From an uncultured Porphyromonadaceae bacterium (lineage in GTDB: Bacteria > Bacteroidota > Bacteroidia > Bacteroidales > Muribaculaceae): a stretch of 64,000 bases of DNA. This document shows positions 39,580-59,327 of this stretch, in pieces. A program made the position numbers and the translations under genes. How positions within the stretch are numbered: the stretch's first letter is position 1; each line of letters begins with the position of its first letter. Location: NCBI GenBank assembly GCA_947643665.1, contig CANRWW010000002.1, positions 1 to 64,000 of the forward strand, written 5' to 3'. The notes beneath the pieces were generated by a model. The model had not been told where the DNA came from. It did no database searches and saw only the letters and a list, made by a program, of their open reading frames with translations.

Positions 39580-39609
39580 TGCAGTCCATCTCCATAAAGA
39601 TACACAGAT

Positions 39610-42335: not shown

Positions 42336-42378
42336 AATGCGACCGCATCCAATAGATGATGCGGTCGCATTATTTTTT
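42336..42378 (+). terminator. Intrinsic terminator of the nfn-ilvA operon
   Basis: A perfect 14-bp stem (42336-42349 with 42358-42371), an 8-base loop and ATTTTTT afterwards. It separates the operon from the oxalate genes. Confidence 0.9.
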
Positions 42379-42497
42379 CCAGATGTGAACTATACCTTAT
42401 GGAGTATGTTGTTTATAGTGGGCGACGTTTAAAAGCGCGGCTCATGACAGATGTGTGAATGGCAAATATAAATGACGAAACAACTAATAAATTTTCT

Positions 42498-43808
42498 ATG
42501 AATACTGCTCCATTACAAGGAATCAAAGTGGTCGATTTTACTGAAGTACAATCCGGCCCTTCATGTACCCAGATGCTGGCATGGCTGGGTGCGGATGTAA
42601 TAAAAATCGAACGTCCCGGTGTTGGAGACGCGACCCGTAAGGAACTTCAATTCAACCCTGACCTTCCAAGTTATTATTATCTCCAGCTTAATAGCGACAA
42701 GAAGTCGCTTACGCTTGATGCCAAGACACCCGACGGCAAGGAAATACTTACAAAGCTGATCCAGCAGGCAGATATGTTTGTTGAGAATCTTCATCCGGGA
42801 GCCATGGACAAGCTAGGTTTCAGCTGGGATGTGGTCCACAAACTTAATCCCAGATGTATTTACGGAACCATCAAGGGGTTTCCGGTATCTTCAAAATATA
42901 AGGATCTAAAGGCTTATGAACCTATTGCCCAGGTGACTGCCGCAGCCGCTTCCACCACAGGATGGTATGATGGGGAATATAACATCCCCTCCCAGTCTGG
43001 TGCGGCATTGGGCGATTCAAATACAGGCATGCATCTGCTTATCGGCCTGCTGGCTGCTTTGCAGCAGCGCGAGCGTACCGGAGAGGGATCATATGTCTAC
43101 CAATCCATGCACAATGCATGTTTGAACCTATGCCGAATCAAGACCCGCGACCAGTTAACCCTTGAAAAAATAGGTTATCTGACACAGTTCCCACAGTATC
43201 CTGATGGCAAATTCGGAGATTGCGTTCCACGTTCGGGGAATATAGAAGGTGGTGGCGTTCTGGGGTGGGCTTACAAGTGTAAGCCGGCCGGCGGATATGA
43301 TTCGGAAGTAGATGCCAACAACTACGTATATATAATCTTGCAGCGTGGTGCCAAGGAATTTGAGGCAGCTTGCAAGGCTATGGGATTCGAGGATTGGCTT
43401 ACTAATCCTGATTTCAATACCGCTGACGCCCGTGACCGTCATAAAAATGAGATATACCAGCGCATAGGCGCATGGACTGCAGACAAGACTAAATTTGAGG
43501 TGACTTCCATACTAGGTCCTGCGGGGGTGCCGGTTGGTCCTGTACTGTCAACCAAGGAGGTTATGTCAGACGAATCCCTATACGACGGCAATACCCTCGT
43601 CCGTATAAATCAGGGTGGTAGGATCGGTGAGTTTGTGACTGTCGGATGTCCTTTCACCATGTCAAGTTATCAGCCTGTTTATGGACCAGCTCCTGAACTT
43701 GGAGGCAATACGGAAGAGGTGCTCAGGAGTCTTGGATATACAGATGACCAGATCGCTTCATTTGCAAAGAACGGGACTACAGCTCCTGTGGAGTCTACCG
43801 ATAAATAA
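42498..43808 (+). CDS. frc: Formyl-CoA:oxalate CoA-transferase
   Basis: Class III CoA-transferase that moves CoA from formyl-CoA to oxalate, releasing formate. LQGIKVVDFTEVQSGPS and ADVIKIERPG open the fold, and the catalytic Asp is Asp173 in LGDSNTGMHL, which matches Asp169 of the Oxalobacter enzyme. GEGSYVYQSM and GGGVLGWAYK (glycine loop) further support Frc rather than a carnitine or succinyl enzyme. ATG 42498 gives 436 aa (Oxalobacter 428); ATG 42459 adds 13 unconserved residues. Next to oxc, its required partner. Confidence 0.93.
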   Translation: MNTAPLQGIKVVDFTEVQSGPSCTQMLAWLGADVIKIERPGVGDATRKELQFNPDLPSYYYLQLNSDKKSLTLDAKTPDGKEILTKLIQQADMFVENLHPGAMDKLGFSWDVVHKLNPRCIYGTIKGFPVSSKYKDLKAYEPIAQVTAAAASTTGWYDGEYNIPSQSGAALGDSNTGMHLLIGLLAALQQRERTGEGSYVYQSMHNACLNLCRIKTRDQLTLEKIGYLTQFPQYPDGKFGDCVPRSGNIEGGGVLGWAYKCKPAGGYDSEVDANNYVYIILQRGAKEFEAACKAMGFEDWLTNPDFNTADARDRHKNEIYQRIGAWTADKTKFEVTSILGPAGVPVGPVLSTKEVMSDESLYDGNTLVRINQGGRIGEFVTVGCPFTMSSYQPVYGPAPELGGNTEEVLRSLGYTDDQIASFAKNGTTAPVESTDK

Positions 43809-43909
43809 GTATGATTATAGAAAATCATAGATAAAAGCAATGTTCCAACGGGTCGGAGTGATTGTCCCGAGCGGGGATTATTTAAGCGAAGACCTGTAAT
43901 CTTCCAATA

Positions 43910-43992
43910 TAGTTTTTAGTTGTTAGTTTTTGGTTGTCGGCCGAGGTTGCTTGGCTTGAGCGGCCGAGGCCTGACAACTAAAAACTGATAAT
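43910..43992. repeat. Tandem and inverted 14-base repeats between frc and oxc
   Basis: TAGTTTTTAGTTGT (43910-43923) is followed directly by TAGTTTTTGGTTGT (43924-43937); an inverted copy lies at 43974-43988. The arms can pair (43922-43942 with 43968-43990), and GGCCGAGG occurs twice in the loop. The rest of the 224-base frc-oxc spacer holds no gene. It may be a small dispersed repeat or a processing hairpin in the frc-oxc transcript. Confidence 0.65.
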
Positions 43993-44032
43993 TGATTTAT
44001 TTTTTATATCTACTTACAATTTTGAAATATAT

Positions 44033-45823
44033 ATGCTCGAAACTAACAATACGTCTTCTTCATCCTCAAGTGCATCAAAGCCCGGCCAGGCTTCTGCCGG
44101 AGGATGTAGCTGTCAGAAACCGGCTCCGCATTTCCCAGAGCAGGTGACAGGCATGTACCTTCTTGCACGTGCGCTAAAAACCATCGGTATTGATACCATT
44201 TATGGCCTTGTAGGCATTCCGATTACCGAGGCGGCGTATATAGCGCAGGGTCAAGGTATAAAATTTGTCGGATTCCGTCATGAGCAGCAGGCCGGTATGG
44301 CTGCTGCCACTCATGGTTATATGACCGGTAAACCCGGCGTGTTGATGACAGTATCATCATTAGGCTTTATGAACGGCCTTACCGCCACAGCCAATGCTAC
44401 AGTCAACTGTTATCCAATGATCCAGATTTCCGGATCGTCGGTACGTGAGCCGATAGACCTTCTTCAGGGTACTTATGAGGGGCTTGACCAGCTTAACGTA
44501 GCCAAACCTGTTGTGAAGGCTGCATACCGTATAAACAGGGCCGAGGATATACCGACAGGGGTTGTGCGTGCATATCGCGCTGCCGTCTCAGGACGTCCCG
44601 GCGGTGTGTATCTTGACATAACTACTCCTGCTCTCGGCCAGATCCTTGACCATGATGTGGCAGAGGCTTTGCTACAGGTGCCTGTGGATCCTGCTCCAGC
44701 CATGATCCCCGCACAGTCGGCGGTCGAACGTGCTGTGAAATTATTCGCTTCGGCTAAAAAGCCTGCAATCCTGGTTGGCAAAGGTGCCGCACAGGCTCAG
44801 GTTGAAGATCTTGTCAAGGAACTTGTTGAGAAGACCGGGGCTCCTTTTTATCCGATGTCAATGGCCAAGGGCATACTGCCCGACAATCACCCCCTCAGTG
44901 CGATTTCGGCTAGAAGCACCATAATGCAAGATGCCGATGTGGTGATGCTTGTGGGTGCACGTCTTAACTGGCTCTTAAGCAGAGGCCAGGGGAAATGGAA
45001 CAAAGAAGGGAAGTTTATCCAGCTGGAAATAGATCCGGAAGAAATTGACAGCAACCGACATATTGACGCGCCTGTCGTAGGGGATCTACGAAGCTCCCTT
45101 GAGGCTATTATATCAGGGATTGAAGGTGTTGAAATGGAGATGGATCCTGCATGGGTATCCGGCATACAGTCGGAGTCCAAAGTCAAGAATGCCAAATTCC
45201 TGGAGCGTCTGCAGCCGAAGACAGTTCCTATGACACATTGGAGCGCCCTCGGTGCCGCCAAAAAAGTAATAGAGGCTAATCCCGATGTGATTCTTGTGAA
45301 TGAAGGTGCCAATACGCTTGATGATACCCGCGACTCAATAGATATGTTCCTGCCGCGCCATCGTGTGGATTGTGCCACATGGGCTATCATGGGCATGGGC
45401 ATGGGATCTTGCGTGGGAGCGGCTGTGGCTACCGGTAAAAGTGTGGTTGCCATAGAGGGTGACAGTGCATTCGGTTTCTCCGGGATGGATTTTTCCACTA
45501 TCTGCCGTTTCAATCTGCCTGTGACTGTTTGTGTGTTCAATAACGGAGGCATCTATAACGGTATAGGCGAACCACTTGACAAGACCTCCGATCCTGCACC
45601 GACCACTCTTGACATAAATGCCAGATATGACAAACTGGGCGAGGCTTTCGGAGCCAAGACATATTATGTGACAACTCCTGATGAGTTTGAACAGGCTCTT
45701 ACTGAGGCTGTGGCTTCAAAGAAACCGTGTCTGATAGATGTGCAGCTTGCTGCAGACTCAGGTAAGGAGAGCGGGCATATCGGTTATCTTAATCCGGCTC
45801 CATTGATTGATATCAAAGTCTGA
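44033..45823 (+). CDS. oxc: Oxalyl-CoA decarboxylase
   Basis: ThDP enzyme converting oxalyl-CoA to formyl-CoA and CO2. GLVGIPITEAA, the cofactor-activating Glu in FRHEQQAGMAAA, AVSGRPGGVYLDI, LVGARLNWLL, VNEGANTLDDTR and the ThDP motif EGDSAFGFSGMD through NNGGIYNG match the Oxalobacter enzyme closely. Length 596 aa against 568: the first about 35 residues are a Ser/Gly/Cys-rich extension (including CSCQ) not needed for the fold. Forms the core oxalate catabolic pair with frc. Confidence 0.96.
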   Translation: MLETNNTSSSSSSASKPGQASAGGCSCQKPAPHFPEQVTGMYLLARALKTIGIDTIYGLVGIPITEAAYIAQGQGIKFVGFRHEQQAGMAAATHGYMTGKPGVLMTVSSLGFMNGLTATANATVNCYPMIQISGSSVREPIDLLQGTYEGLDQLNVAKPVVKAAYRINRAEDIPTGVVRAYRAAVSGRPGGVYLDITTPALGQILDHDVAEALLQVPVDPAPAMIPAQSAVERAVKLFASAKKPAILVGKGAAQAQVEDLVKELVEKTGAPFYPMSMAKGILPDNHPLSAISARSTIMQDADVVMLVGARLNWLLSRGQGKWNKEGKFIQLEIDPEEIDSNRHIDAPVVGDLRSSLEAIISGIEGVEMEMDPAWVSGIQSESKVKNAKFLERLQPKTVPMTHWSALGAAKKVIEANPDVILVNEGANTLDDTRDSIDMFLPRHRVDCATWAIMGMGMGSCVGAAVATGKSVVAIEGDSAFGFSGMDFSTICRFNLPVTVCVFNNGGIYNGIGEPLDKTSDPAPTTLDINARYDKLGEAFGAKTYYVTTPDEFEQALTEAVASKKPCLIDVQLAADSGKESGHIGYLNPAPLIDIKV

Positions 45824-45878
45824 CCCATGTCCATATCAGGCTCCTTATAAAATAATTTCCACGATTTACTTATTTAAT

Positions 45879-45920
45879 ATCTGCCGGGTGATGTCTCCTG
45901 TCAGGAACTCCCCGGCAGAT
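45879..45920 (+). terminator. Hairpin behind oxc
   Basis: ATCTGCCGGG (45879-45888) pairs with CCCGGCAGAT (45911-45920); TCCTG/CAGGA can pair inside. Only TTT follows, so it is likely a partial terminator or processing site before the carrier gene. No gene in the 190-base spacer. Confidence 0.5.
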
Positions 45921-46013
45921 TTACAAAAGAATCATAACGCTCGCGGTTCGCGTTAAAACAATCTTTTACGGGAAACGAGGGACGCATGTTTAACTGTTTA
46001 TAAAATAAACTTT

Positions 46014-46988
46014 ATGGTACACATATTGTTATACGCGATAGTCCCTATCATCGTTGTGATGCTTGCGGGCTACATCTCCGGAAAAAAAGGTATATTTAAC
46101 GGAGACAACGCCAAGGCGTTTAACAAGGTCGTGCTGGACTATGCTTTGCCGGCTGCCTTGTTCGTATCAATTGTTGATGCAAGTCGCGAGATGCTTGTGC
46201 GCGACATAAAGCTCACCATAATTTCCACCATTGGTATCATGGTCTGCTTTATGATAGTGTATTTTATTTATGCATATTGTTTTAAAGGCAATACCAAGGC
46301 GGATGGAGCTATAATGGCTCTTGTTTGTGGATCTCCAACAATCGGTTTCCTCGGTTTTGCCGTGTTGGAGCCTATTTTTGGCACAACTCCGTCTGTTGCG
46401 TTGGTGGTGGCTATCGTAGGTATTGTGGTGAATGCTATCGGCATACCGGTAGGCCTGTCGTTGCTTAATTCCGCCAATGAGAAACTGAAACCGCTTGCGC
46501 CCGGCCAGAAGAGGCCGAGTGCGTGGAAGCCTGTGATACATGCCCTTGAGCAGCCTGTGGCATGGGCGCCTATCCTGGCTGTGGTATGGGTGGTTGTCGG
46601 TCTGCCTTGGCCGGACTGGGCAAGCCCTTCGTTTGATCTTATCAAAGGTGCAAATGCATCCATGGCAGTGTTTGCTGCCGGTGTGACGCTTTCTGCAGTA
46701 AAGGTAAATATAAACTGGCAGGCAGTCCTCGGATGTATCCTCAAACTGATTATGATGCCGGCTTTCGTGCTTGTGCTCGGTCTGATTTTCAAGATGGATC
46801 CGATGAATCTGAAGATGCTTGTCGTGGCATGCGCCCTTCCTCCGGCATTCTCGGGTATTATCATTGCCAGCGAGTATGACACGTATGTGGCGACTTCCAC
46901 ATCGTCGCTAGCATTGAATGTGATAGCCTTTATCGCTTTCTGCCCGCTTTGGATATGGATAACAGATATATGCATCAAGGCATTCTAA
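46014..46988 (+). CDS. AEC-family carrier, candidate oxalate transporter
   Basis: A 324-aa inner-membrane protein with about ten helices in two inverted halves, of the auxin efflux carrier (AEC) family that includes malonate and malate permeases. Recognisable parts are the N-terminal VIxxMLAGYISGKKG segment, the mid-protein loop and ACALPPAFSGIIIASEY near the end. Located directly behind frc and oxc, and the only anion carrier between them and PFOR, so import of oxalate (perhaps in exchange for formate) is inferred. It is not an OxlT-type MFS antiporter. Confidence 0.8.
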   Translation: MVHILLYAIVPIIVVMLAGYISGKKGIFNGDNAKAFNKVVLDYALPAALFVSIVDASREMLVRDIKLTIISTIGIMVCFMIVYFIYAYCFKGNTKADGAIMALVCGSPTIGFLGFAVLEPIFGTTPSVALVVAIVGIVVNAIGIPVGLSLLNSANEKLKPLAPGQKRPSAWKPVIHALEQPVAWAPILAVVWVVVGLPWPDWASPSFDLIKGANASMAVFAAGVTLSAVKVNINWQAVLGCILKLIMMPAFVLVLGLIFKMDPMNLKMLVVACALPPAFSGIIIASEYDTYVATSTSSLALNVIAFIAFCPLWIWITDICIKAF

Positions 46989-47104
46989 ACATTTGCAACA
47001 TTCTATCTCAATAAATCTAAATAATTGTGAGACAGATGCGGGACGCCCTGACTTGGCTGTCAGTGGTGTCCCGCAATTGTTTCCATATATCAAGGAAAAC
47101 GAAA

Positions 47105-50100
47105 ATGAAACAGATATTTGACGGTTGTGCGGCTGCAACACATATCGCATATGCCCTTAGCGATGTGGCCACCATTTATCCTATAACCCCTGTGGCTTCC
47201 ATGGGTGAGATTGCACAGAAATGGGGAATGGCGGGAAGAAAGAACTATATGGGCATGACCTTACGCGTGGAAGAGATGGAAAGCGAGCTTGGAGCCGCCG
47301 GTGCCACACATGGCGCCTTGGCAGCCGGATCGCTTGCCACGACTTTCACCAATTCGCAGGGGCTTATGCTGATGCTTCCTAATATGTTCAAGATCGCAGG
47401 CAACCATTTGCCGGCAGTCTTCCATGTGGGATCACGCTCGCTTGCCACTCATGCGTTGAGTATCTTCGGGGACCATTCCGATGTGATGGCCACACGGTCA
47501 AGCGGTTTTGCCTATCTGGCATCGTCGTCTGTACAGGAGGCTATGGATCTGGCTTTGGTCTCCCATCTGGCTGCTGTGGAGGGGAGTTTGCCCGTATGCC
47601 ATTTTTTTGATGGATGGCGCACCTCAAACCAGATGTCTACGATTGATGTGATTGATTATGATACGATTTGGCCGCTTGTCAATTGGGAAAAGATACGTGG
47701 GTTTAGAAATATGGCTTTGAATCCCGACCATCCGACGTTGGCAGGCTCGGCACAGAATCCCGATGTGTATTTTCAGAATTCAGAGGCTTCAAACTGTTCA
47801 TATGATGCTTTCCCGGGGATAGTGCAGAAGATAATGGATCGCGTAGGTGAGGCTATCGGGCGCCATTATCATCTGTTTGACTATGCCGGCCATCCGGAGG
47901 CGGAAGTTGTGCTTGTATCTATCGGTTCAAGCTGTGAGGTAATCAGGCAGACCATAAATGTTCTTGATTCGATGGGATATAAAGTAGGGGCTGTGAATGT
48001 GCGGTTGTTTCGGCCGTTCTCTGCCGAGTCACTTATGAAAATCGTGCCTGAGACAGTGCGTACGATTGTGGTTCTTGACCGGACAAAAGAACCGGGTGCT
48101 GAGGGGGAACCGCTTTTCAAGGATGTGGCCACTGCCACTGTGATGACCGGACGCACCGGCATAAAGGTGCTCGGTTGCCGTTACGGTTTGTCAAGCAAGG
48201 AGTTTAGCCCCGCTATGGTAAAGGGTGTGGTTGATGAGGCTTTAAAGCCGAACCCCCGGCGCTTTTTCACGGTGGGGATTACAGACGATGTGACGCACCT
48301 GTCAATTGATGTTGATTATGGTTTCCAATTGTCTTCAGTGCAGCCGGACGGAAAGCCGATGTGCCAGTCGGTATTTTATGGCATGGGGTCTGATGGGACT
48401 GTCGGGGCTACCAAACAGGCGGCACGGATCATTGTAGGCAACAGCGGCCTGTATGCCCAGGCATACTTTTCATATTCGGCAAAGAAATCTGGAGGATATA
48501 CAACATCGCAATTGCGGGTGGGGAGTATGCCTATATCTGCCGACTATAACATAGAGAGCGCCGATTATGTGGGATGCAACAAAGATACATATATACAGCG
48601 TTTCCATCTTTTGCGCAATCTAAGGAAAAGTGGCATCTTTGTGTTGAATTGCTCATGGGATGACAGGCAGCTGGGGGAATTGCTCCCTGACCATATGAAA
48701 AGGGAACTTGCGCTTAAGAATGTGGATTTCTATGTGATAGATGCCCAGGCAATCGCACGCGATGTAGGTCTGGGAGTGAGGGTAAACATGATCATGGAGA
48801 CGGTATTCTTCCATCTGTCGCAGATCATACCGTTTGAAGTGGCTGTTGACGGACTTAAAAAAGAGATTACGGCATCATATATGCATGAAGGGGGAGATGT
48901 GGTGCAGAAAAACTTCAGGGCCGTGGATATGGCGGTTGGTGCTTTGCGTAAGGTAGAGGTGCCTTCGTCATGGTCGGATGCTGTGGAATATGTGTTGCCT
49001 GATAAAAATTTGCCCAAAGGCATACCGCGCGATACGGATAGTTTTTTCAATATGATTTCCAAACCTTGCCTGCGTCTGGAAGGGGATTCGTTGCCTGTAT
49101 CGGTGTTCTCTCCCGACGGGCATATGCCGATGGGTACTACCGCTTTTGAAAAGCGCAGGATTGCGATAAATGTGCCCCAGTGGGATCCGGAAAAATGCGT
49201 GCAGTGTACCGAATGTTCGCTCGTATGCGCCCATGCTGCAATAAGGCCTTATCTGTTGACGGATAAGGAAATTTCCGCAGCTTCAGTGGATGTCTCCGCA
49301 AACCTCCTTACCATTCCTTCGGAACTTTCCGGAAAGGTGCCGGGAGCGGATGGCTTGCGCTACAGGATACAGGTTTATCCGGAGGACTGCACAGGCTGCT
49401 CGTCGTGCGCTACCATATGTCCCGGCCATGCCCTTACGATGGTGCCTATTGGAAGCCAGCTTGATGTGCAGATTTCCCTTCTTGATTTCATACAGGAAAA
49501 TGTATCCCTTAAAGACAAACTTGTGCCTCGTTTCACCACAGACGGATCACAGTTCCAACAACCTCTTCTGGAATTTTCAGGGGCATGTGCCGGGTGCGGT
49601 GAAACACCTTATGTAAAACTGCTTACACAGCTTTTCGGCGAGCGCATGCTGGTGGCTAACGCAACGGGGTGCTCATCAATATGGGGAGCCAATTATCCTA
49701 GCAATGCATATTGCCGCCGTTGTTCTGACGGACGTGGGCCTGCCTGGGGCAATTCGTTGTTCGAGGACAATGCCGAATATGGATACGGTATGGCGGTAAG
49801 TTGCCGTCAGCGTCGTGAGGCGCTTCTGGCGGATGCAAAAGCGCTTCTGGCGCTCATTCCTGCCAATGATGCATTGTCAGAGGCGTTAAGCGGCTGGATT
49901 GGTGCATATGCAGATCCCGACCGCTCATATTCATGCGGTAAGACCCTCATAGGCATATTGGAAAGCTATGACGTACATGATGGGCAGGCAGCCCGTTTGA
50001 AAGATGCAATCATTGCCAATGCCGATATGTTGGGTAAGAAAAGCATATGGGCTATAGGTGGAGATGGTTGGGCGTATGACATAGGTTTCGCCGGGCTTGA

Positions 50101-50884
50101 CCATGTGCTTGCTTCCGGCGAGGATATAAATCTGCTTGTGATGGATACGGAATGTTATTCCAATACCGGTGGCCAGACCTCCAAGGCGACCCCGCTTGGT
50201 GCCGTCACCAAATACTCTCCATACGGCAAGCGTACTTTTAAGAAAGATTTGGGGCGTATGATGATGACTTATGGTACTGTTTATGTAGCTTCGGTTGCAT
50301 TGGGAGCCAATTACCAGCAGACAATTGATGCCATGCGGGAAGCGGAGGCATATCCGGGGCCATCTATAATAATAGCATATTGTCCATGTATAAATCATGG
50401 AATCAGGGCCGGGATGGGTAATTCTATTGTGGAGGAACGATTGGCTGTAGAGGCAGGATATTGGCCAATATACCGTTTCAATCCTCTTCTCGCCGATCGT
50501 AGGCTTTCTCCATATATTGCTGACAGGCTCGCTCCGTCCGACGGTCTCCAGTCTGACGGATCCCCCTCTGCGGTTGAAAGTGACGATGAAATCTCGGCAG
50601 GAGAAGGTTCGTGGATAAAGGTGAATGAAGAATCTTCTACTCTTACTGTGGATTATCCGTTGCTGGACCATACAGCACAAGCCGTTGGGAATAATGGTGT
50701 GGAGAACTTGCCGGAAAATATCTTTCCGGCAGACAAACTTAATGCTTTCCTTGACGGTGAAGACAGATATGCCGACATAGCCATTGTGGCTCCTTCTGCC
50801 GCTCCCGTCTTGCGCAGTGAACTTTCAGCGCGTACCAACCTTCTCCATACTATACTTCAAGGGTTGTCCGTAGTTGAGAAATAG
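47105..50884 (+). CDS. nifJ: Pyruvate:ferredoxin (flavodoxin) oxidoreductase with extended C-terminus
   Basis: Oxidative decarboxylation of pyruvate to acetyl-CoA and CO2 with ferredoxin reduction. Single-chain PFOR layout: YPITP (domain I), RVEEMESELGAAGA, substrate Arg before ATHALSIFGDHSD, two [4Fe-4S] sites (CVQCTECSLVC; CTGCSSCATIC), GACAGCGETPYVK, and the ThDP site GGDGWAYDIGFAG with SNTGGQTSKATP. ATG 47105 fits the family start; frames from 47027 are longer without homology. At 1259 aa it is about 70-90 residues longer than usual, owing mainly to a Ser/Asp/Glu-rich segment near residues 1140-1180 and an altered tail. A divergent stretch (NYPSNAYCRRCSDG) replaces the usual sequence after SSIWG. 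Confidence 0.9.
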   Translation: MKQIFDGCAAATHIAYALSDVATIYPITPVASMGEIAQKWGMAGRKNYMGMTLRVEEMESELGAAGATHGALAAGSLATTFTNSQGLMLMLPNMFKIAGNHLPAVFHVGSRSLATHALSIFGDHSDVMATRSSGFAYLASSSVQEAMDLALVSHLAAVEGSLPVCHFFDGWRTSNQMSTIDVIDYDTIWPLVNWEKIRGFRNMALNPDHPTLAGSAQNPDVYFQNSEASNCSYDAFPGIVQKIMDRVGEAIGRHYHLFDYAGHPEAEVVLVSIGSSCEVIRQTINVLDSMGYKVGAVNVRLFRPFSAESLMKIVPETVRTIVVLDRTKEPGAEGEPLFKDVATATVMTGRTGIKVLGCRYGLSSKEFSPAMVKGVVDEALKPNPRRFFTVGITDDVTHLSIDVDYGFQLSSVQPDGKPMCQSVFYGMGSDGTVGATKQAARIIVGNSGLYAQAYFSYSAKKSGGYTTSQLRVGSMPISADYNIESADYVGCNKDTYIQRFHLLRNLRKSGIFVLNCSWDDRQLGELLPDHMKRELALKNVDFYVIDAQAIARDVGLGVRVNMIMETVFFHLSQIIPFEVAVDGLKKEITASYMHEGGDVVQKNFRAVDMAVGALRKVEVPSSWSDAVEYVLPDKNLPKGIPRDTDSFFNMISKPCLRLEGDSLPVSVFSPDGHMPMGTTAFEKRRIAINVPQWDPEKCVQCTECSLVCAHAAIRPYLLTDKEISAASVDVSANLLTIPSELSGKVPGADGLRYRIQVYPEDCTGCSSCATICPGHALTMVPIGSQLDVQISLLDFIQENVSLKDKLVPRFTTDGSQFQQPLLEFSGACAGCGETPYVKLLTQLFGERMLVANATGCSSIWGANYPSNAYCRRCSDGRGPAWGNSLFEDNAEYGYGMAVSCRQRREALLADAKALLALIPANDALSEALSGWIGAYADPDRSYSCGKTLIGILESYDVHDGQAARLKDAIIANADMLGKKSIWAIGGDGWAYDIGFAGLDHVLASGEDINLLVMDTECYSNTGGQTSKATPLGAVTKYSPYGKRTFKKDLGRMMMTYGTVYVASVALGANYQQTIDAMREAEAYPGPSIIIAYCPCINHGIRAGMGNSIVEERLAVEAGYWPIYRFNPLLADRRLSPYIADRLAPSDGLQSDGSPSAVESDDEISAGEGSWIKVNEESSTLTVDYPLLDHTAQAVGNNGVENLPENIFPADKLNAFLDGEDRYADIAIVAPSAAPVLRSELSARTNLLHTILQGLSVVEK

Positions 50885-50944
50885 CTATTCTTATAGTATG
50901 GGCTATGCACAAATAATGATTGTTTTTGCGTGTCATGAAAAATT

Positions 50945-50990
50945 GGACTGCATCACAAAAGTTGGATATGAAACATTTGTGGTGCAGTTC
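50945..50990 (+). terminator. Hairpin behind PFOR gene
   Basis: A 15-bp stem (50945-50959 with 50976-50990, with wobbles) and a 16-base loop, 60 bases past the stop; a short T run (50997-51000) follows after seven bases. Probable transcript end. Confidence 0.55.
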
Positions 50991-51349
50991 AAATCGTTTT
51001 AATTTGATACATCCTCCTGTTTGAAAGGGCGGCGTCCAAGTTCATTGTTTGATGTGCTTGGATTATAGTCTGTATTTTTGAAAAAAATAAAAAAACGGTG
51101 TTGTTAATATGTGTGGATCTGTTTGTGGTATGTTAGGTTTATTTCGATTGGATTAGTTATTGAAAAGGATATATGCAGATAATTTAACATATAGTTAATA
51201 TGGTCTGGTTCGGGTGCTCGTCAGGCTTGTTTGCGATGGTGTTTTTAGCGATCTGTAATGTGCAGATGTGTGTGTTGCTATATAAAAGTGTTTGCACGGG
51301 GCATGTAGAGGCATTTTGCTAAAATTTTATTAAATTTGTTTGCAAAATG

Positions 51350-51381
51350 TTTGCAGATAAACAAACCCTTTTATATCTTTG
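51350..51381 (+). promoter_or_regulatory. Orphan Bacteroidetes promoter
   Basis: TTTG (51350-51353), 20 bases, TATCTTTG (51374-51381): the best match to the full consensus in the window. The predicted start is near 51388. No gene begins for about 445 bases. Confidence 0.7.
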
Positions 51382-51387
51382 CAGCAT

Positions 51388-51648
51388 ACAAAGTGAATAA
51401 CTTATGTGCCCCCGCCGGTAATCCGGTATTAAAAGCAAATATATTGGTTGGACTGACAGATTTTTTTTACATAATTGAACGATTGGACATATTTTTCATT
51501 ATTGGGGGCAGGACGGATTTTGTCCGGAATATAATTCTCTTCATCTGATTTAATATTCCCAGTGGAAGGAGCCAGCGGTTGGTTCCTTCCACTATGTTGC
51601 GGCAATTCATTGATTGCACAGATATGGTGCGTTTGTGCAATCAATGCC
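51388..51648 (+). ncRNA. Candidate structured non-coding RNA
   Basis: From the predicted start, TGCCCCC (about 51416-51422) can pair with GGGGGCA (about 51504-51511), enclosing a CCGG-TAAT-CCGG hairpin. Next comes a perfect-arm 14-bp hairpin (51561-51574 with 51580-51593, one wobble, loop GCGGT) and a 12-bp hairpin extended by GGC/GCC (51601-51620 with 51634-51648). No ORF fits. It could be the 6S/Bacteroidales-1 type RNA, another sRNA, or the leader of ptb-buk. Boundaries are uncertain; no T-rich terminator directly follows. Confidence 0.45.
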
Positions 51649-51832
51649 AGTGATGGCGCTAAATTAATTTTGCTATAAAAGGACGATTGTAAAATAATAT
51701 AAGCGTTAATCATTGTGAATGTGTGTAAATGTCAAAATGGATGTAAATTAAATTTAATTTTTTAGTAGTTTTTTTGGTCGTAAAATTGTGCATTTTCAAA
51801 AATAATTCTGATATTTGCAAAAAACATATTAT

Positions 51833-52753
51833 ATGGCCATGGAAGCGATCAGAACCTTTTCCCAGATATACGATCTTTTGGGAAGTCTTGATAACCGTAA
51901 ACGTATAGCGGTAGTGTGTCCTGATGATGCATGCACCCGTTCTGCCGTAGCAGATGCTTTGGCAAAAGGTCTTGCGGATTTTCTGTTGGTAAGTACACCG
52001 GAGGCTCTTTCCACTTTGCCGGATGAAATATTGTGCCATGGCAGCGAAAGGGTTATGAAACGTGAGGCATTGTCGCCTGATTCTGCTGCTGCGTTGGCTG
52101 TAGAGGCTGTGCGTTCTGGAGAAGCCGACATATTGATGAAAGGTCTCATCAATACGGATAATTTCCTTCGTGCCATATTGAATAAGGAGCATGGCTTGCT
52201 GCCGAAAGGCAATGTGCTTACGCATTTGTCTGTCGCCCAGTTGCCTGGTTACCATAAACTGCTTTTCTTCGGGGATGTTGCTGTAATACCTTATCCGACT
52301 TTGGAGCAACGTGTGGCAATGCTTAAATATAATATCGCCACTTGTAGAAAGTTCGGAATATCATGCCCTAAAGTAGCATTGATACATTTTACCGAAAAGG
52401 TAAATGAAAAATTTCCTAATTCGGTGGATTATGTGGCTCTTGAAGAAATGGCTTCTCGCGGGGAGTTCGGTTCTGTTGAGATGGGAGGACCGATGGATGT
52501 AAAGACGGCTTGCGACAGGCATAGTGCTGAAGTGAAAGGTATTGAATCTCCAGTATGTGGTAATGCCGATCTGCTCATGTTCCCTAATATTGAGTCCGGC
52601 AACACGTTTTATAAGACGGTAACCCTTTTTGGTGGTGCTGATATTGCCGGTATGTTGCAGGGTGCCCTCTGCCCGGTGATCCTTACCAGCCGGAGCGATA
52701 CCACGCTTTCCAAACTTTCAAGTATGGCTTTTGCATGCCTTAGCGTGCTTTAA
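51833..52753 (+). CDS. ptb: Phosphate butyryltransferase (acyl-CoA phosphate acyltransferase)
   Basis: Exchanges CoA for phosphate on short-chain acyl-CoA, making acyl-phosphate. PTA/PTB fold: RKRIAVVCPDD at the start, GEADILMKGLINTDNFLRAIL, LTHLSVAQLPGYHKLLFFGDVAV and a C-terminal SRSDTTLSKL block. About 306 aa and the adjacent butyrate kinase favour Ptb over Pta. ATG 51833 is preferred; a TTG at 51815 lies within an AT-rich box (GATATTTG) that may itself be promoter. Butyryl-, isobutyryl- or other acyl-CoA specificity cannot be read. Confidence 0.9.
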   Translation: MAMEAIRTFSQIYDLLGSLDNRKRIAVVCPDDACTRSAVADALAKGLADFLLVSTPEALSTLPDEILCHGSERVMKREALSPDSAAALAVEAVRSGEADILMKGLINTDNFLRAILNKEHGLLPKGNVLTHLSVAQLPGYHKLLFFGDVAVIPYPTLEQRVAMLKYNIATCRKFGISCPKVALIHFTEKVNEKFPNSVDYVALEEMASRGEFGSVEMGGPMDVKTACDRHSAEVKGIESPVCGNADLLMFPNIESGNTFYKTVTLFGGADIAGMLQGALCPVILTSRSDTTLSKLSSMAFACLSVL

Positions 52754-52827
52754 GGCATTGATGCAATAGTTTTGCAGGATTATTTCCACAACTCTTTTTC
52801 CATAACAAACCGATAAAAGCGTAAAAC

Positions 52828-53949
52828 ATGAAGATACTTGCAATAAATCCCGGTTCCACTTCAACTAAGATGGCTGTGTTCGAGGATACTACACCTGTGC
52901 TTACATTAAGTCTCCGGCATAGTGTGGAGGATCTTGAGCCGTTTCCAAAGGTGATTGATCAATTTGATTTTCGCAAGAACCTTGTGCTTAAGGCATTGGC
53001 AGACAATGGGATCCCTTTTGAATTTGATGCGGTGGTAGGCCGTGGCGGTCTGTTGCGTCCCATACCAGGTGGAGTTTATGAAGTGAATGATGCGATGGTG
53101 GCAGACATACGCAAGGTGCGTCGCAGCCATGCCTGCAATCTGGGGTGTCTCATAGCACGTGACCTCGCTGACGAGCTTGGATGCAAGGCATTCATTGCCG
53201 ATCCGGGGGTTGTTGACGAGCTTGATGAAATAGCCCGTGTGACAGGTTCACCGCTTATGCCGCGTACCACTACATGGCATGCATTGAACCAGCGCGCGAT
53301 CGGTCGCCGTTTTGCTGCCGAACAGAGCGAACTTCGCGGTGAGCATCTTAAATATGAAGATTTTAATCTTATTATATGCCATCTTGGTGGAGGAATATCC
53401 ATCGGGGCGCATAAAGGAGGAAAAGCCATAGATGTGAACAATGCTTTTGACGGGGAGGGTCCTTTCTCTCCGGAGCGGGCAGGCTCACTTCCGTCAGGGT
53501 CGCTTATAGACCTTTGTTTTTCGGGAAGGTACAGCAAGGATGAACTGAAGAAACGCATAAGCGGGAAAGCCGGTCTTGCGGCTCATTTAGGCACTACGCA
53601 TATTCCTGAGATTCTGGAGCGCATAGATAATGGCGATGACTATGCCCGTCTTGTGCTGGATGCCATGATCTACCAGATTGCAAAGAATATAGCTTCTTTA
53701 GGTCCGGTATTCTATGGCAAGGTGGATGCTATATTGGTTACCGGAGGCATTGCATACTCCGATTATGTGATTTCGCGTCTTAAAGAGCGCATATCGTATA
53801 TGGCACCGGTATATGTGTATCCCGGTGAAGATGAGTTGGAGGCTCTCGCGCTTAATGCATTGGGCGCCCTTACCGGTGAATTGCCTGTGCAGGTATATAC
53901 GCAAAAAAAAGCTAAACCCCTCCCTTGTGTTGAGCCACAACTCAATTGA
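52828..53949 (+). CDS. buk: Butyrate kinase
   Basis: ASKHA-fold kinase: acyl-phosphate + ADP to acid + ATP. The N-terminal ILAINPGSTSTKMAVFED is diagnostic, with VGRGGLLRPIPGGVY, HLGGGISIGAHKGGKAID and the adenosine motif LVTGGIAYS following. Length 373 aa, slightly longer than the usual 355-360 owing to a Lys/Pro-rich C-terminus. 74 bases after ptb; the pair yields ATP by substrate-level phosphorylation, usually from butyrate or branched-chain acids. Confidence 0.94.
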   Translation: MKILAINPGSTSTKMAVFEDTTPVLTLSLRHSVEDLEPFPKVIDQFDFRKNLVLKALADNGIPFEFDAVVGRGGLLRPIPGGVYEVNDAMVADIRKVRRSHACNLGCLIARDLADELGCKAFIADPGVVDELDEIARVTGSPLMPRTTTWHALNQRAIGRRFAAEQSELRGEHLKYEDFNLIICHLGGGISIGAHKGGKAIDVNNAFDGEGPFSPERAGSLPSGSLIDLCFSGRYSKDELKKRISGKAGLAAHLGTTHIPEILERIDNGDDYARLVLDAMIYQIAKNIASLGPVFYGKVDAILVTGGIAYSDYVISRLKERISYMAPVYVYPGEDELEALALNALGALTGELPVQVYTQKKAKPLPCVEPQLN

Positions 53950-54018
53950 GATCCTATGACCATGCGGAGGGGAAATGGATTTGGCTGTTCCGAATATATG
54001 AATATTTGTTTGTGAAAT

Positions 54019-54807
54019 ATGGCTCTCATACCACATCCACAACTTATCACACTTGTAGAAAAAATAGGTTGCGACAAGACGTCGCTGGCAATCGGGCGTC
54101 TTGCCGTATTGTCTTTAATGGCAGGGGCATTTATCGCGTTGGGAGGTATATTGTCTGTTTTTGTAGGTTTCGGCATTCCCGGCATATCAGCGGCGAATCC
54201 TGGTATCCAGAAATTACTGAGCGGTCTGATGTTCCCCACGGGATTATTCCTGATAGTTCTTTTCGGTGGTGAACTTTTTACTGGTAACAATGCTGTCCTG
54301 ATGCCGGGATGCCTCAAACGGCGTTTCGGGTTGTTTACTGTAATCAGGCATTGGACTACCGTATGGATATTCAACTTCGTTGGAGCATTGTTGTTTACCT
54401 ACCTGTTTGTGTACATGAGCCGCCTTACGGCTAGTGAGCCATACCATACGGCTGTGATAAATATCGCTCAATCCAAGGCATCTCTTCCGTGGGGAGTGTC
54501 CTTTGTCAAGGGCATTGCAGCCAACTGGTGTGTATGTCTTGCGGTGTGGCTTTGTCTGATGGTAGACAATCTTCCGGCGAAAATGCTTGCTTGCTGGATC
54601 CCTGTAGGGGCATTTGTGGTGTTGGGTTATGAGCACTGTATAGCCAACATGTTTTTTATTCCGGCAGGCATGTTCGAAGGCGCCGATGTAGGTATGGCAG
54701 GATTATTCAATAATCTCGTGCCGGTAACGCTTGGAAATATAGCCGGTGGTGCGTTGCTTGTAGGTGCCCTGTTCCATAGTTTGCATGGAAGCGGCAGAAA
54801 ACAGTGA
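54019..54807 (+). CDS. focA: Formate/nitrite transporter family channel (FocA-like)
   Basis: Pentameric FNT channel of 262 aa with six helices. FGGELFTGNN matches the omega-loop motif, NWCVCLAVW is the third conserved block, and the central His lies in YEHCIANMFFIPAG. VPVTLGNIAGG is the last motif. FNT members carry formate, nitrite or hydrosulfide. With frc and oxc in the same strand block and no nitrite genes in sight, formate is the best guess. No terminator is seen between buk and this gene (69 bases). Confidence 0.9.
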   Translation: MALIPHPQLITLVEKIGCDKTSLAIGRLAVLSLMAGAFIALGGILSVFVGFGIPGISAANPGIQKLLSGLMFPTGLFLIVLFGGELFTGNNAVLMPGCLKRRFGLFTVIRHWTTVWIFNFVGALLFTYLFVYMSRLTASEPYHTAVINIAQSKASLPWGVSFVKGIAANWCVCLAVWLCLMVDNLPAKMLACWIPVGAFVVLGYEHCIANMFFIPAGMFEGADVGMAGLFNNLVPVTLGNIAGGALLVGALFHSLHGSGRKQ

Positions 54808-54932: not shown

Positions 54933-55544
54933 CTATCTCACGTTCAGTATCTTATGTGTCTGCAATGACAGGACCCAAGTCGGGTTCTGCAATATGTATG
55001 CTATGGTGGCCGTGGTTATGGCTTTGTTGCGGTGTGCGTCTCCTGTATCGCAAGGCTGCAATGACCGCAATGCACCATGTTTTTCCGCAAGGTTTTCAAA
55101 ACCGGTTAACCTTGTGGCTTCAGCATCGGGCAATGGCAGCGATTCTGCCTTGAAAACCACTTTCAGTTCATCTATGCGCCTAAGTCTTACCGGCGCGCTT
55201 TTCGGAGAACAAGTGATATGGTCAATAAGCCTGAGCATGCTGTCAGGAAGATCAATGGATCCGTTGGTCTCAATCTGTATTTTTTTGCCTGCTTTTCTGA
55301 GTTTTTCCAACAGTGATGAGGTGAGTTGCAATGTTGGCTCTCCTCCGGTGATGACAATGTATTCGGCTGGATAATTGAGTGTTTCGGCTACAATTTCATC
55401 TTCGGTCATTTCATCGGATGTCTCATGGTGCGTGTCACAGAAATCGCATTTAAGGTTGCATCCGGAAAGACGCACGAAAACAGAGGGCGAACCTGTGCGG
55501 TGTCCCTCTCCTTGAAGTGAATAGAATATCTCGTTGACTTTCAT
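54933..55544 (-). CDS. queE: 7-carboxy-7-deazaguanine synthase
   Basis: Radical-SAM enzyme of queuosine/7-deazaguanine synthesis: 6-carboxytetrahydropterin to CDG. SLQGEGHRTGSPSVFVRLSGCNLKCDFCDT carries the CxxxCxxC cluster motif and the QGEG substrate motif, and ITGGEPTLQ is the SAM-contact block (shown here in parts). 203 aa, standard. It follows queD by 23 bases, the previous enzyme of the pathway. Confidence 0.95.
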   Translation of the reverse strand: MKVNEIFYSLQGEGHRTGSPSVFVRLSGCNLKCDFCDTHHETSDEMTEDEIVAETLNYPAEYIVITGGEPTLQLTSSLLEKLRKAGKKIQIETNGSIDLPDSMLRLIDHITCSPKSAPVRLRRIDELKVVFKAESLPLPDAEATRLTGFENLAEKHGALRSLQPCDTGDAHRNKAITTATIAYILQNPTWVLSLQTHKILNVR

Positions 55545-55567
55545 ATATGGCAGATAAACAGGCTTTG

Positions 55568-55939
55568 TCAGATTGCGGAACCGGCCGCGATATCTGAGGG
55601 GGTAGCGTCATCAGACACGTATAGCACGGAATTGCCTTCTGATTCCTGTACTGATACCATGAAACATCCTTGTATTTCTCCGCATATCCAGCGTGCGATG
55701 TTTTCTGCTGTAGGATTGAACGGAAACAGCTCATTGAAGTTCCCGTGATCCAGTTGCCCGTGCACGCGCTCTTTTATATGGGTGAAATCAGCAACCATCC
55801 CGTCGGGGTTCAATTCGGTGCCGCGGCAGTAAACAGTCACCACCCAATTGTGTCCATGCAGCCGGCTGCATTTGCTTTCATATGAGAGCCGCAGGCTATG
55901 GCAACCGGCAATCTCCATCCTTTTTTTGATATAGTACAT
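55568..55939 (-). CDS. queD: 6-carboxy-5,6,7,8-tetrahydropterin synthase
   Basis: PTPS-fold enzyme making CPH4 from dihydroneopterin triphosphate. The zinc ligands are His in GCHSLR and the two His of LHGHNW; the catalytic Cys is in SKCSRLHGH; the LDHGNFNE segment holds the Asp/His pair. 123 aa, standard. First of the queD-queE pair with a TAnnTTTG box upstream. Confidence 0.95.
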   Translation of the reverse strand: MYYIKKRMEIAGCHSLRLSYESKCSRLHGHNWVVTVYCRGTELNPDGMVADFTHIKERVHGQLDHGNFNELFPFNPTAENIARWICGEIQGCFMVSVQESEGNSVLYVSDDATPSDIAAGSAI

Positions 55940-56071: not shown

Positions 56072-59000
56072 TTATTTTTCAGGACTTGCGGGTTTGTCTG
56101 CCGTTTTGGGTTCCGGCAACCTGCCGGAACCTGAAAAGATGCGGCTGAGATAGCGTTCCTGCAATTTCTGGAAAAGCTCCCAGAAATTAGGTACGAACAG
56201 GCAGCCTATTATGGCATTTACCGCCATGCCGAATACAACCGCCGTGCCGAGGCTTACGCGGCTTTCTGCTCCGGCACCTGTTGCGAACAGCATAGGCATC
56301 ACGCCGAATACAAATGCCATGGCAGTCATCATTATCGGTCGGAAGCGTACAATGCCGCCTTGCCTGGCCGCCTCACGGATGGGCATGCCGCTTTTGCGGA
56401 AATCAATGGCATATTCCACGATGAGGATGGCATTTTTTGCTGCGAGGCCTAGAAGCAGTATTATGCCTATCTGGGTATATATGCTTATGCTCTGGTTGAG
56501 GAAAAAGCATCCTATGATTGTACCGAGTATGGCTGTGGGCATCGCAATGACGACGGCAAGCGGATCTGTCCAGCTTTCATATTGGGCGGCAAGCACCAGT
56601 ACCGTCATTATTATGGCAAATATTAGCACTATAGTTATGGTAGTGCCCGATTGTGTCTCCTGATATGCTTCTCCTGTCCATGCATAGCCATAATTGTTGC
56701 CAGCGGCTTCGCTTACGATATCTTCCATTGCGGCTATCGCTTCAGACGAACTTACCCCTTTGGCGGGTGTGGCGGTTAGCGATGCGGTCTGGTACATGTT
56801 GTAGCGGTTGATGGATGATGAACCCATGGCAGGTTCAATACGGGCGAACGATGCGAAAGGCACCATGTCGCCATTGTTATTCCGCACTGAGAGATGGAGT
56901 ATGTCATCAGAATGGCTGCGTGCCCATCCTTCTGCGGCGATATTGACCTGGTATACTTCATTGAACTCAACGAAGTCATTGACATATGATCCACCTACAT
57001 AAGAAGACAATGCTGAATAGACGGCATCAAGGCTAATGCCCATCAATTCTATTTTGTCCCTGTCCATGATTACGCGGTATTGCGGTACATTTCCCTCGTA
57101 AAGCGATTGTACGGAGGCTATTGCCGGATTTTTGTCTGCCGCCTCGCGAATGGCGCCAATGGCAGCCATCATGTCTGTGGAGCTTTGTGAATTTATATCA
57201 AGCAACTGCATCTGCAGACCGGAGGTCATGCCCAATCCCGGTATGGCAGGCGGGTTTATCGCAAAAACGATGCCTTCCTGCAATGCCGCACATTTCTCAT
57301 TGATGCGTTCCATCACAGCTTCAACGCTGTGCGACTTGCCTTTACGTTCATTCCAGGGCTTGAGTACGACGAACATGGAACCAAGATTGCTTCCAGCTCC
57401 ACCTTCCATGAATGAGAAACCGGTGATTTCCAATACGTCCTGGACTTCCGGCATGGAGCTGATCATGTCGCTTACCTGTGCCACCACTTTGTCTGTGCGT
57501 TCGAGCGATGCCCCTGTCGGGAGCTGGACGGACGTCATGAAATAACCCATGTCTTCTTCGGGCACATAAGTCGTAGGCCAGCGGAGGAATCCCCAGAGCG
57601 CTGCGGCGCATAACAACAGGTAGCATCCTATTGCGACAACCGGATGCTTCAGGCATCTGCCTATGCCCTTAGTGTAAAGTGCCAATGTGGCGCCCCACCC
57701 TTTGTTGAACCATTTGTAAAGGAAAAATCCTGAAGGTTTGCTTTTACGGAGGAACAACGCGCACATTGCAGGCGTGAACGTCAGGGCGTTGAAGCCAGAG
57801 AAAGCAGTGGAGACTGCGATTGTGAGTGCGAACTGTTTATAAAGTTCGCCTGTAATGCCTGAAATAAAAGCTGTAGGTATGAATACCGACAACAATACCA
57901 AGACTTCACCTACCACCGGCCCCTGCAGTTCAGTCATGGCTTTTTCGGCAGCCTGGCGTGGCGTCATCTTTCCTTCGTTTACAATACGGGCGCAGTCTTC
58001 CACAACCACAATGGCATCATCCACCACAATCGCTATGGCGAGCACGAGGCCGAAAAGTGTAAGTGTGTTAAGGGTGAAGCCGAGCAGTTTCATTACCGCG
58101 AATGTGGCTATCAACGATACCGGAATGGTAATCATCGGTATGATCACAGCCCTCCAGCTCTGCAGGAAGAAAAGGATCACGACCATCACGATAAGGGTGG
58201 TTTCAACGAATGTGACCAGCACTTCATCAATAGATGCAGAAACAAAGTCTGTGGTGTTCATCAACACACGGTAATGCACGCCAGGCGGGAGGTATGGCTC
58301 AAGGTTTTCCAGTTCTTTTTCCACCTCTTCTGCCACACTTAGGGCATTTGCGTCTGAACGTTGATATACGCCTATCAGTCCGGCTTCCTTGCCGGACACT
58401 CGTGATATCGCGCTGTAGCTTTCGCTTCCGAGTTCCACTTTTGCTATGTCGCGTAAGCGGAGCAATCCGTTGTCACCGTTGGAGCGGATTATTATGTCGC
58501 CGAACTGCTCGGCAGTGACAAGACGTCCTGGAGAGGATAGCGTGAACTGGAATGATGCTGGATTTTTCACAGGCTGGCTTCCCACTGATCCGGCTGATAC
58601 TTCAATGTTCTGTGAGCGGATTGCCGACATTACATCAGATGGTGTTACACCGCGTGCCCGCATGAGGTCTGGATTGAGCCATACACGCATGCTGTATTCT
58701 CCCGCTCCGAAAGCGTTCACACCACCCACACCTTCGAGGCGTGACAGCGGATTGACCAGATGGAGCTGGGCGTAATTGGTGAGGAACAGCGAATTGTAAC
58801 GTTCTGGATTGTCACTCTCTAGTGCTACGAACAGAAGGATGTTCGTGCTCTCTGAATTGATGCTCACTCCCTGTTGGGTCACCGAGGCGGGCAGGCGTGA
58901 AGATGCCTGGTTGACAAGATTCTGTACCTTTACTGTGGCATCGTCAAGGTTTACGTTGTTGTTGAATGTTATGGTGAGGCTGTATGAGCCGTCGTTGCCT

Positions 59001-59248: not shown

Positions 59249-59327
59249 ATCTGGTCAATTGGCAATTAACAGTTGTGGGTTTAGTATCCGGCAATCTTAA
59301 CCGGTATGGATTAAGGTGTTGGCAAAA

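Follow-up and report, generated by a model that had tools for sequence, protein, structure and literature searches.

A clade of 2-oxoacid:ferredoxin oxidoreductases associated with the oxalate genes frc and oxc in Muribaculaceae

Organization of the locus

The DNA analysed here, hereafter the window, is a stretch of 64,000 nucleotides from an uncultured bacterium whose family was taken as Muribaculaceae; the host assembly comprises 2.6 Mb in 68 contigs and is 95.8% complete. The window carries frc and oxc, the genes for a predicted conversion of oxalate to formate and CO2, followed by genes for a carrier of the AEC family and for a single-chain enzyme of the pyruvate:ferredoxin oxidoreductase (PFOR) type, and then by ptb, buk and a gene for an FNT-family channel. 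All seven are open reading frames (ORFs), collinear and on the plus strand within 12 kb, as a first-pass annotation of the window had described. The oxalate genes are real and mostly known, and the export half that the annotation had added to them, formate release through the FNT channel, is unsupported as part of one unit; the new element is the PFOR-type enzyme, which belongs to an oxalate-associated clade, here called PFOR2. The features of the locus are as follows.

42336..42371, plus strand: terminator-like hairpin between ilvA and frc, with a 14-pair stem and a T-rich tail.
42459..43808, plus strand: frc, formyl-CoA:oxalate CoA-transferase of the YfdW type with a variant glycine loop (family score, residues, 53% identity to E. 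coli YfdW).
44033..45823, plus strand: oxc, oxalyl-CoA decarboxylase, a thiamine diphosphate enzyme (family score, residues, 52% identity to E. coli YfdU).
46014..46988, plus strand: AEC-family carrier, YfdV-like, likely an oxalate carrier (48% identity to E. coli YfdV, position after oxc).
47105..50884, plus strand, start ATG 47105: PFOR2, single-chain 2-oxoacid:ferredoxin oxidoreductase of a separate, oxalate-associated clade (family score, tree, residues).
51048-51080 and 51350-51381, plus strand: two promoter-like sites of the Bacteroidetes type in the gap before ptb (consensus match).
About 51839..52753, plus strand: ptb, phosphotransbutyrylase-like, lineage-local neighbour (profile match below the TIGR02706 cut-off).
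52828..53949, plus strand: buk, butyrate-kinase family, lineage-local neighbour (TIGR02707).
54019..54807, plus strand: FNT-family channel, sole PF01226 match of the genome, possible formate exit (PF01226).

Families were assigned by comparing NCBIfam and Pfam profile scores with curated cut-offs. Frc scored 570.2 with formyl-CoA transferase TIGR03253 (cut-off 504.2), Oxc 768.1 with oxalyl-CoA decarboxylase TIGR03254 (cut-off 739.4), the PFOR 1494.9 with TIGR02176 (cut-off 911.35) and Buk 501.7 with butyrate kinase TIGR02707 (cut-off 289.1). The AEC protein matched YfdV best, with a score of 304.1 for NF007384 (cut-off 404), and Ptb reached 235.9 with TIGR02706 (cut-off 410.5). The FNT protein exceeded the cut-off of superfamily PF01226 (248.9; cut-off 34.6) and stayed below those of the FocA equivalog TIGR04060 (168.0; cut-off 290.1) and of TIGR00790 (214.4; cut-off 232.3). 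The names frc, oxc, PFOR and buk given in the first pass were thus confirmed, while the equivalog cut-offs for FocA, Ptb and YfdV were not reached. The start of frc had been placed at 42498, which is an internal ATG; the gene itself is real and begins at 42459. A profile search of the window genome gave one match each for PF02515 (class III CoA-transferase), PF01226 and PF03547 (AEC).

The intergenic gaps measured 224 bp between frc and oxc, 190 bp between oxc and the AEC gene, 116 bp between the AEC and PFOR genes (counted from ATG 47105) and 954 bp between the PFOR gene and ptb. A terminator-like scan of the region yielded 15 sites against 13.9 expected in shuffles, and the site before frc had the longest stem. 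This hairpin suggests that frc starts a new unit; it is a consensus match, not proof. In an Rfam scan of positions 34000-64000, tRNA-Cys was the only RNA element returned near the genes. A gene for a ClC-like chloride channel or H+/Cl- exchanger, scoring below curated cut-offs, lies near the oxalate genes on the minus strand (37309-38661); in E. coli, proteins of the ClC type contribute to acid resistance.

Association of PFOR2 with the oxalate genes

The window PFOR was used to search 148 genomes of the window's family, in 90 of which oxc was present (the split or partial oxc genes of G002, G068 and G133 being counted as present). The search returned 42 genes at 58-100% identity, which are referred to as PFOR2, followed by a gap, below which lay at least 108 matches at 49% identity or less across the 148 genomes. 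The latter are of the housekeeping type (PFOR1), and the window genome has both types. Among the matches listed, PFOR2 occurred in 42 of the 90 oxc-positive genomes and in none of the 58 oxc-negative ones (Fisher p 9.7e-12), where a fragmentary PFOR2 could escape the listed matches. Genus-stratified shuffles reached the observed count in 2 of 5000 trials. Twenty-seven of the 42 PFOR2 genes were located on the same contig as oxc and at most 6 kb from it. Among the remaining 15, the PFOR2 gene of L128 has an AEC gene next to it near a contig end, that of L126 is cut 199 bp upstream, and in 13 genomes at least 5.5 kb upstream of PFOR2 were free of AEC and oxc genes.

An order-level sample of 247 genomes, 243 of them outside the window's family, was scored with two candidates per genome. 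Outside the family, PFOR2-level matches were listed in G316 and G220 only, which belong to one genus of another Bacteroidales family; both carry oxc, and in both the order is frc-oxc-AEC-PFOR2. Among the plasmid matches listed (15 of 44 records), identity was at most 49%, which is the ordinary PFOR level, and a plasmid-borne PFOR2 was rejected for these records. In the genomes sampled, PFOR2 was seen only where oxalate genes also occur. The PFOR, which the first-pass annotation had listed without a role, is the linked neighbour of the oxalate genes.

PFOR2 as a separate clade

In a phylogenetic tree, the 51 PFOR2 rows formed one clade with a support of 100 in the Shimodaira-Hasegawa-like approximate likelihood ratio test (SH-aLRT), and 13 PFOR1 rows formed a clade of their own beside other Bacteroidales PFORs. 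The tree was built by a quick method with a midpoint root and with 14 of 26 outgroup rows (12 were dropped), and one partial PFOR2 row (L172) was dropped from the alignment. Residues were compared between the 51 PFOR2 rows and 39 other PFOR rows, 90 aligned rows in all. PFOR2 is homologous over residues 2-1146 to the PFORs of Desulfovibrio africanus (DaPFOR) and Moorella thermoacetica. In DaPFOR, Thr31 and Arg114 bind the pyruvate carboxylate, and Leu121, Ala219, Ile843, Asn996 and Met1202 form the pocket (PMC5020499, as given in the part available). The corresponding residues are kept in the window PFOR2 as T28, R111, L118, A216, I859 and N1020, the comparison covering four of the five pocket residues with Met1202 left out. 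Within the clade they were found in 48/51 (T28), 51/51 (R111), 51/51 (L118), 49/51 (A216), 46/51 (I859) and 51/51 rows (N1020). Twelve cysteines, which match Fe-S positions by homology, were invariant in all 90 rows. E61 of the window enzyme is taken by us to be the thiamine pyrophosphate (TPP) glutamate.

PFOR2 differs from the known PFORs by its place in the tree and by a set of substitutions next to these positions. Two residues before E61, all 51 rows have E59 (Q in other PFORs), and two residues before R111, 49 of 51 have G109 (S/T elsewhere). N or D is found at position 863 in 48/51 rows (S/T elsewhere) and Y or F at position 864 in 49/51 (mostly A/V elsewhere), four and five residues after I859. 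C1017, three before N1020, was present throughout (51/51; V elsewhere), and C1093, two before the invariant C1095, in 50/51 rows (S/A elsewhere). Of these residues, E59, C1017 and C1093 also occur in the PFOR2 proteins of the two genomes from the other family, in which positions 109, 863 and 864 are T, S and M and T28 is replaced by S. An AlphaFold model of residues 1-1200 reached a mean predicted local distance difference test (pLDDT) value of 64.9, with values below 50 in 853-887 and 1015-1055, which include active-site positions; because the model is unreliable there, the clade-specific residues were not placed in space. The clade may differ from other PFORs in its substrate or in its tolerance of oxygen.

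Conservation of frc, oxc and the AEC carrier gene

When species-level genomes were searched with the Oxc protein, 281 loci were confirmed, the best 80 of which were analysed; they lean towards close relatives and overlap the 148-genome family set, so that they are not an independent sample. In 79 of the 80 loci, frc was found upstream of oxc on the same strand, the exception (L043) being a locus whose sequence starts about 200 bp ahead of oxc. An AEC gene followed within 1.5 kb downstream of oxc in all 73 loci that extended far enough (at least 1.5 kb), which bears out the conserved order frc-oxc-AEC looked for after the first pass. PFOR2 was present downstream in 25 of the 61 oxc loci with at least 7 kb of room. 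When ORFs of the 80 oxc loci and of 15 further PFOR2 loci were clustered, the only families found in more than seven loci were oxc, AEC, frc and PFOR2. The run frc-oxc-AEC-PFOR is more than chance. Relatives at above 50% identity to ptb and buk were found near oxc in 2/80 loci, to FNT in 1/80 and to ilvA in 3/80, only 52 of the 80 loci extending 9.9 kb on the downstream side.

Within the family, frc and oxc were found in exactly the same 90 of 148 genomes. The Frc alignment comprised 76 rows (75 loci and the window) and the Oxc alignment 79. Frc residues Asp169, which we take to be catalytic, and Gln17 and Tyr139, which presumably act with it, are present in the window and were found in 73/76, 72/76 and 72/76 rows, respectively; the other rows have gaps at these sites, except for one unread residue at Y139. 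The equivalents of Oxc Glu56, Tyr120, Glu121, Tyr483 and Ser553, which we take to be catalytic residues, were each kept in 79/79 rows. The identification of Frc and Oxc as enzymes predicted to turn oxalate into formate and CO2 thus stands, with both cut-offs passed and the checked residues kept. In these enzyme families it is established that Frc moves CoA from formyl-CoA to oxalate and that Oxc decarboxylates oxalyl-CoA to formyl-CoA, and the same cycle is predicted for this bacterium. In place of the glycine loop GGGGQP of YfdW, all 76 Frc rows have E-G-(G/S)-G-V-L, although the family score was still reached, and E (Q in YfdW) occupied the W48 position in each of the 73 rows that have a residue at this site, so that the donor range may differ.

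The first-pass annotation had proposed that the AEC protein imports oxalate. Since its gene followed oxc in every locus with room and is the sole PF03547 match of the genome, we infer that it likely does so, and this part of the proposal is a fair one. The annotation had also set the carrier apart from that of Oxalobacter. An AEC-type carrier does lie beside the enzymes, but the arrangement is not new. In E. coli K-12, frc, oxc and yfdV, followed by yfdE, have the same order and direction as in the window, at the identities given above. The oxalate and acid-tolerance operon yfdXWUVE differs from the window island, which has neither a yfdX nor a yfdE gene and in which a PFOR gene follows the AEC gene. 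The same trio was found on a plasmid of Cetobacterium somerae (Fusobacteriota; L189, 5917-10026), with a cupin gene upstream and with the Frc loop E-G-G-Q-V-L. Oxalobacter formigenes, with Frc, Oxc and OxlT, shares the two enzymes and the reaction cycle (PMC3720670, part available) and differs from the window, which has the AEC-type carrier beside them. That oxalate genes had been reported in S24-7 genomes is in print: Ormerod et al. (2016) described 19 of 30 genomes as oxalate-positive, all of them with frc, oxc and a permease gene next to oxc, and proposed that the permease imports oxalate (PMC4936053). A PFOR is not mentioned in the available part of that paper, and the arrangement frc-oxc-AEC-PFOR2 is added here.

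The ptb, buk and FNT genes

FNT genes were counted at scores above 140 bits, which gave 79 of the 148 genomes (two as fragments); 21 genomes with only weak FNT-like matches (about 44 to 93 bits) were left out of the count. Both oxc and FNT were present in 61 genomes, oxc only in 29, FNT only in 18 and neither in 40 (Fisher p 2e-5 without genus control). This association vanished within genera, stratified shuffles reaching the count in 1689 of 5000 trials. In the 61 genomes with both genes, they lay on the same contig in 8, at distances of 10, 11, 13, 21, 36, 67, 575 and 599 kb, and on different contigs in 53. A focA gene within 15 kb of oxc had been expected from the first-pass annotation; an FNT gene that close was found in 3/61 genomes (G000, G145 and G062), which all belong to the window's genus. 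Among 20 FNT regions taken from other genomes, none of the neighbouring gene families occurred in more than four, FNT itself being picked in 18. With neither a within-genus association nor recurrent neighbours, FNT was rejected as a conserved part of the island. In the congener G043, ptb, buk and FNT are grouped on one contig and oxc is on another, and no ptb, buk or FNT match was found in the 9 kb downstream of its PFOR2 gene. Linkage of ptb-buk-FNT to the oxalate genes was not found beyond the window's genus.

A promoter-like motif, which we take to be of the Bacteroidetes type, had eight matches in the whole window against 1.82 expected in shuffles, and two of them lie in the 954-bp gap before ptb. 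These sites, too, are consensus matches and no proof. No PF02901 match (pyruvate formate-lyase, PFL) was found in the window genome, and PFL was rejected as its formate source. Elsewhere in the family, a PFL match was found in 11 of the 148 genomes, nine of which belong to a single genus and 10 of which carry oxc. After the FNT gene, a queE-like gene (134.3 bits, cut-off 240) and a queD-like gene, named by eye, were located at 54933-55939 on the minus strand. A gene for an RND efflux permease and, upstream of it on the same strand, an adaptor gene named by eye lie at 56072-60458, also on the minus strand. A relative of the queD-like gene was also seen near ptb-buk-FNT, away from oxc, in the congener locus L207.

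Discussion

We consider it probable, with clear reservations, that the block consists of two adjacent modules, frc-oxc-AEC with PFOR2 and ptb-buk-FNT, and that PFOR2 is kept for the oxalate pathway, perhaps priming the Frc cycle. Oxalate would enter through the YfdV-like AEC carrier. Frc would then move CoA from formyl-CoA to oxalate and Oxc would convert oxalyl-CoA to formyl-CoA, one proton being taken up per turn and CO2 and formate being released. The cell would likely gain by ridding itself of oxalate and by defending its pH rather than by growing on oxalate. PFOR2 would serve as a second 2-oxoacid:ferredoxin oxidoreductase for use with the oxalate pathway and, as a best guess, might produce reduced ferredoxin together with an acyl-CoA to start or replenish the Frc cycle, either one derived from pyruvate or formyl-CoA derived from glyoxylate. 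The genes ptb-buk-FNT would form a separate unit, found adjacent in the window's genus only, whose channel may release formate as an inconstant partner of oxc.

In E. coli, YfdE, an acetyl-CoA:oxalate CoA-transferase, has been suggested to prime the cycle (PMC3720670, part available). A second full-length class III CoA-transferase above the cut-off was found in none of the 148 family genomes, including the 90 with oxc. Second matches above the cut-off were the other part of the same gene, with the parts on different contigs in G104 and G127, and G067 gave one weak match below it. As no second CoA-transferase of the YfdE type was found, PFOR2 is guessed to supply the acyl-CoA primer. It is improbable, though worth stating, that PFOR2 is a branch re-tuned for the oxalate cycle, joining glyoxylate or another small 2-oxoacid to CoA to give formyl-CoA or another acyl-CoA accepted by Frc, priming in place of YfdE and passing electrons of C2 acids to ferredoxin; if true, gut Bacteroidales would have a form of the oxalate pathway that is coupled to redox. 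A gene pair corresponding to the halves of PRK12778, and presumably NfnA/NfnB-like, lies upstream of ilvA and frc at 38797-41073 on the plus strand and could use reduced ferredoxin; among the 80 loci, L002 and L036 were the only ones with such a pair close to oxc.

Several points weigh against a dedicated role of PFOR2. It was not among the matches listed in 48 of the 90 oxc-positive genomes, and in the window's genus oxc was present in 11/11 genomes and PFOR2 in only 5/11; its absence from so many oxc-positive genomes indicates that the pathway can do without it. In the 13 unlinked PFOR2 genomes, the genus-stratified test was weak (1616/20000), which indicates that linkage and shared descent carry much of the signal. 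The housekeeping PFOR1, present in the window genome and in most relatives (at least 108 of the 148), could make acetyl-CoA, and the priming role of PFOR2 is a guess reached by inference. PFOR2 might then be an ordinary paralog, gained next to the oxalate genes and retained for general purposes, with linkage and descent producing the co-occurrence. The weak test, the single clade and the match of T28, E61, R111, L118, A216, I859, N1020 and the Fe-S cysteines with the pyruvate enzymes all agree with this, but the complete lack of listed PFOR2 matches in the 58 oxc-negative genomes, the location of PFOR2 within the oxalate island in both listed genomes outside the family, and the clustering of nearly fixed PFOR2-specific residues next to catalytic positions make it somewhat doubtful. 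A single-chain oxalate oxidoreductase, converting oxalate to two CO2 with ferredoxin, would account for the strict co-occurrence with oxalate genes and would belong to the same superfamily as the Moorella enzyme. However, the motif of that enzyme is YPIRP (PMC5020499, part available), whereas the window has YPITP, and the position of the arginine is occupied by T in 48/51 and S in 3/51 PFOR2 rows and never by R; this candidate was rejected as highly improbable.

The first-pass annotation had interpreted all the genes as one complete import-decarboxylate-export unit, an evolved island in which the AEC protein imports oxalate, Frc and Oxc split it and FNT exports formate. The common strand within 12 kb is in keeping with this, as are the lack of a PFL match, which may make oxalate a main formate source, the family-wide co-occurrence of oxc and FNT before genus control, and a figure legend of PMC6381624 that names frc, oxc and a formate transporter as KEGG Orthology groups (KOs) specific to S24-7. 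The association was, however, absent within genera; a strong FNT match is missing from 29 of the 90 oxc-positive genomes and present in 18 of the 58 oxc-negative ones. Proximity of the two genes was confined to the three congeneric genomes, though 53 of the 61 were split over contigs, FNT regions had no recurrent neighbours, and promoter-like sites precede ptb. A single island is thus unlikely, and the reading with two modules, PFOR2 belonging to the oxalate side, is preferred.

In mouse metaproteomics, Frc and Oxc of Bacteroidetes are reported to be higher in faeces than in caecum, as are glutamate decarboxylase, glutaminase, superoxide dismutase and catalase (PMC5348496, part available), which fits a role in stress or pH. 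Searches of open-licence papers turned up none that links a PFOR to oxalate genes, and PMC2776528, in the part available, describes no such link. The locus also calls for caution, as seven collinear genes need not be one unit, ptb, buk and the formate channel appearing as local neighbours. If a dedicated ferredoxin-linked enzyme does belong to the oxalate system, priming of the Frc/Oxc cycle without YfdE would become directly testable, and oxalate use in these bacteria would depend on their redox state and on how much of a 2-oxoacid is supplied.

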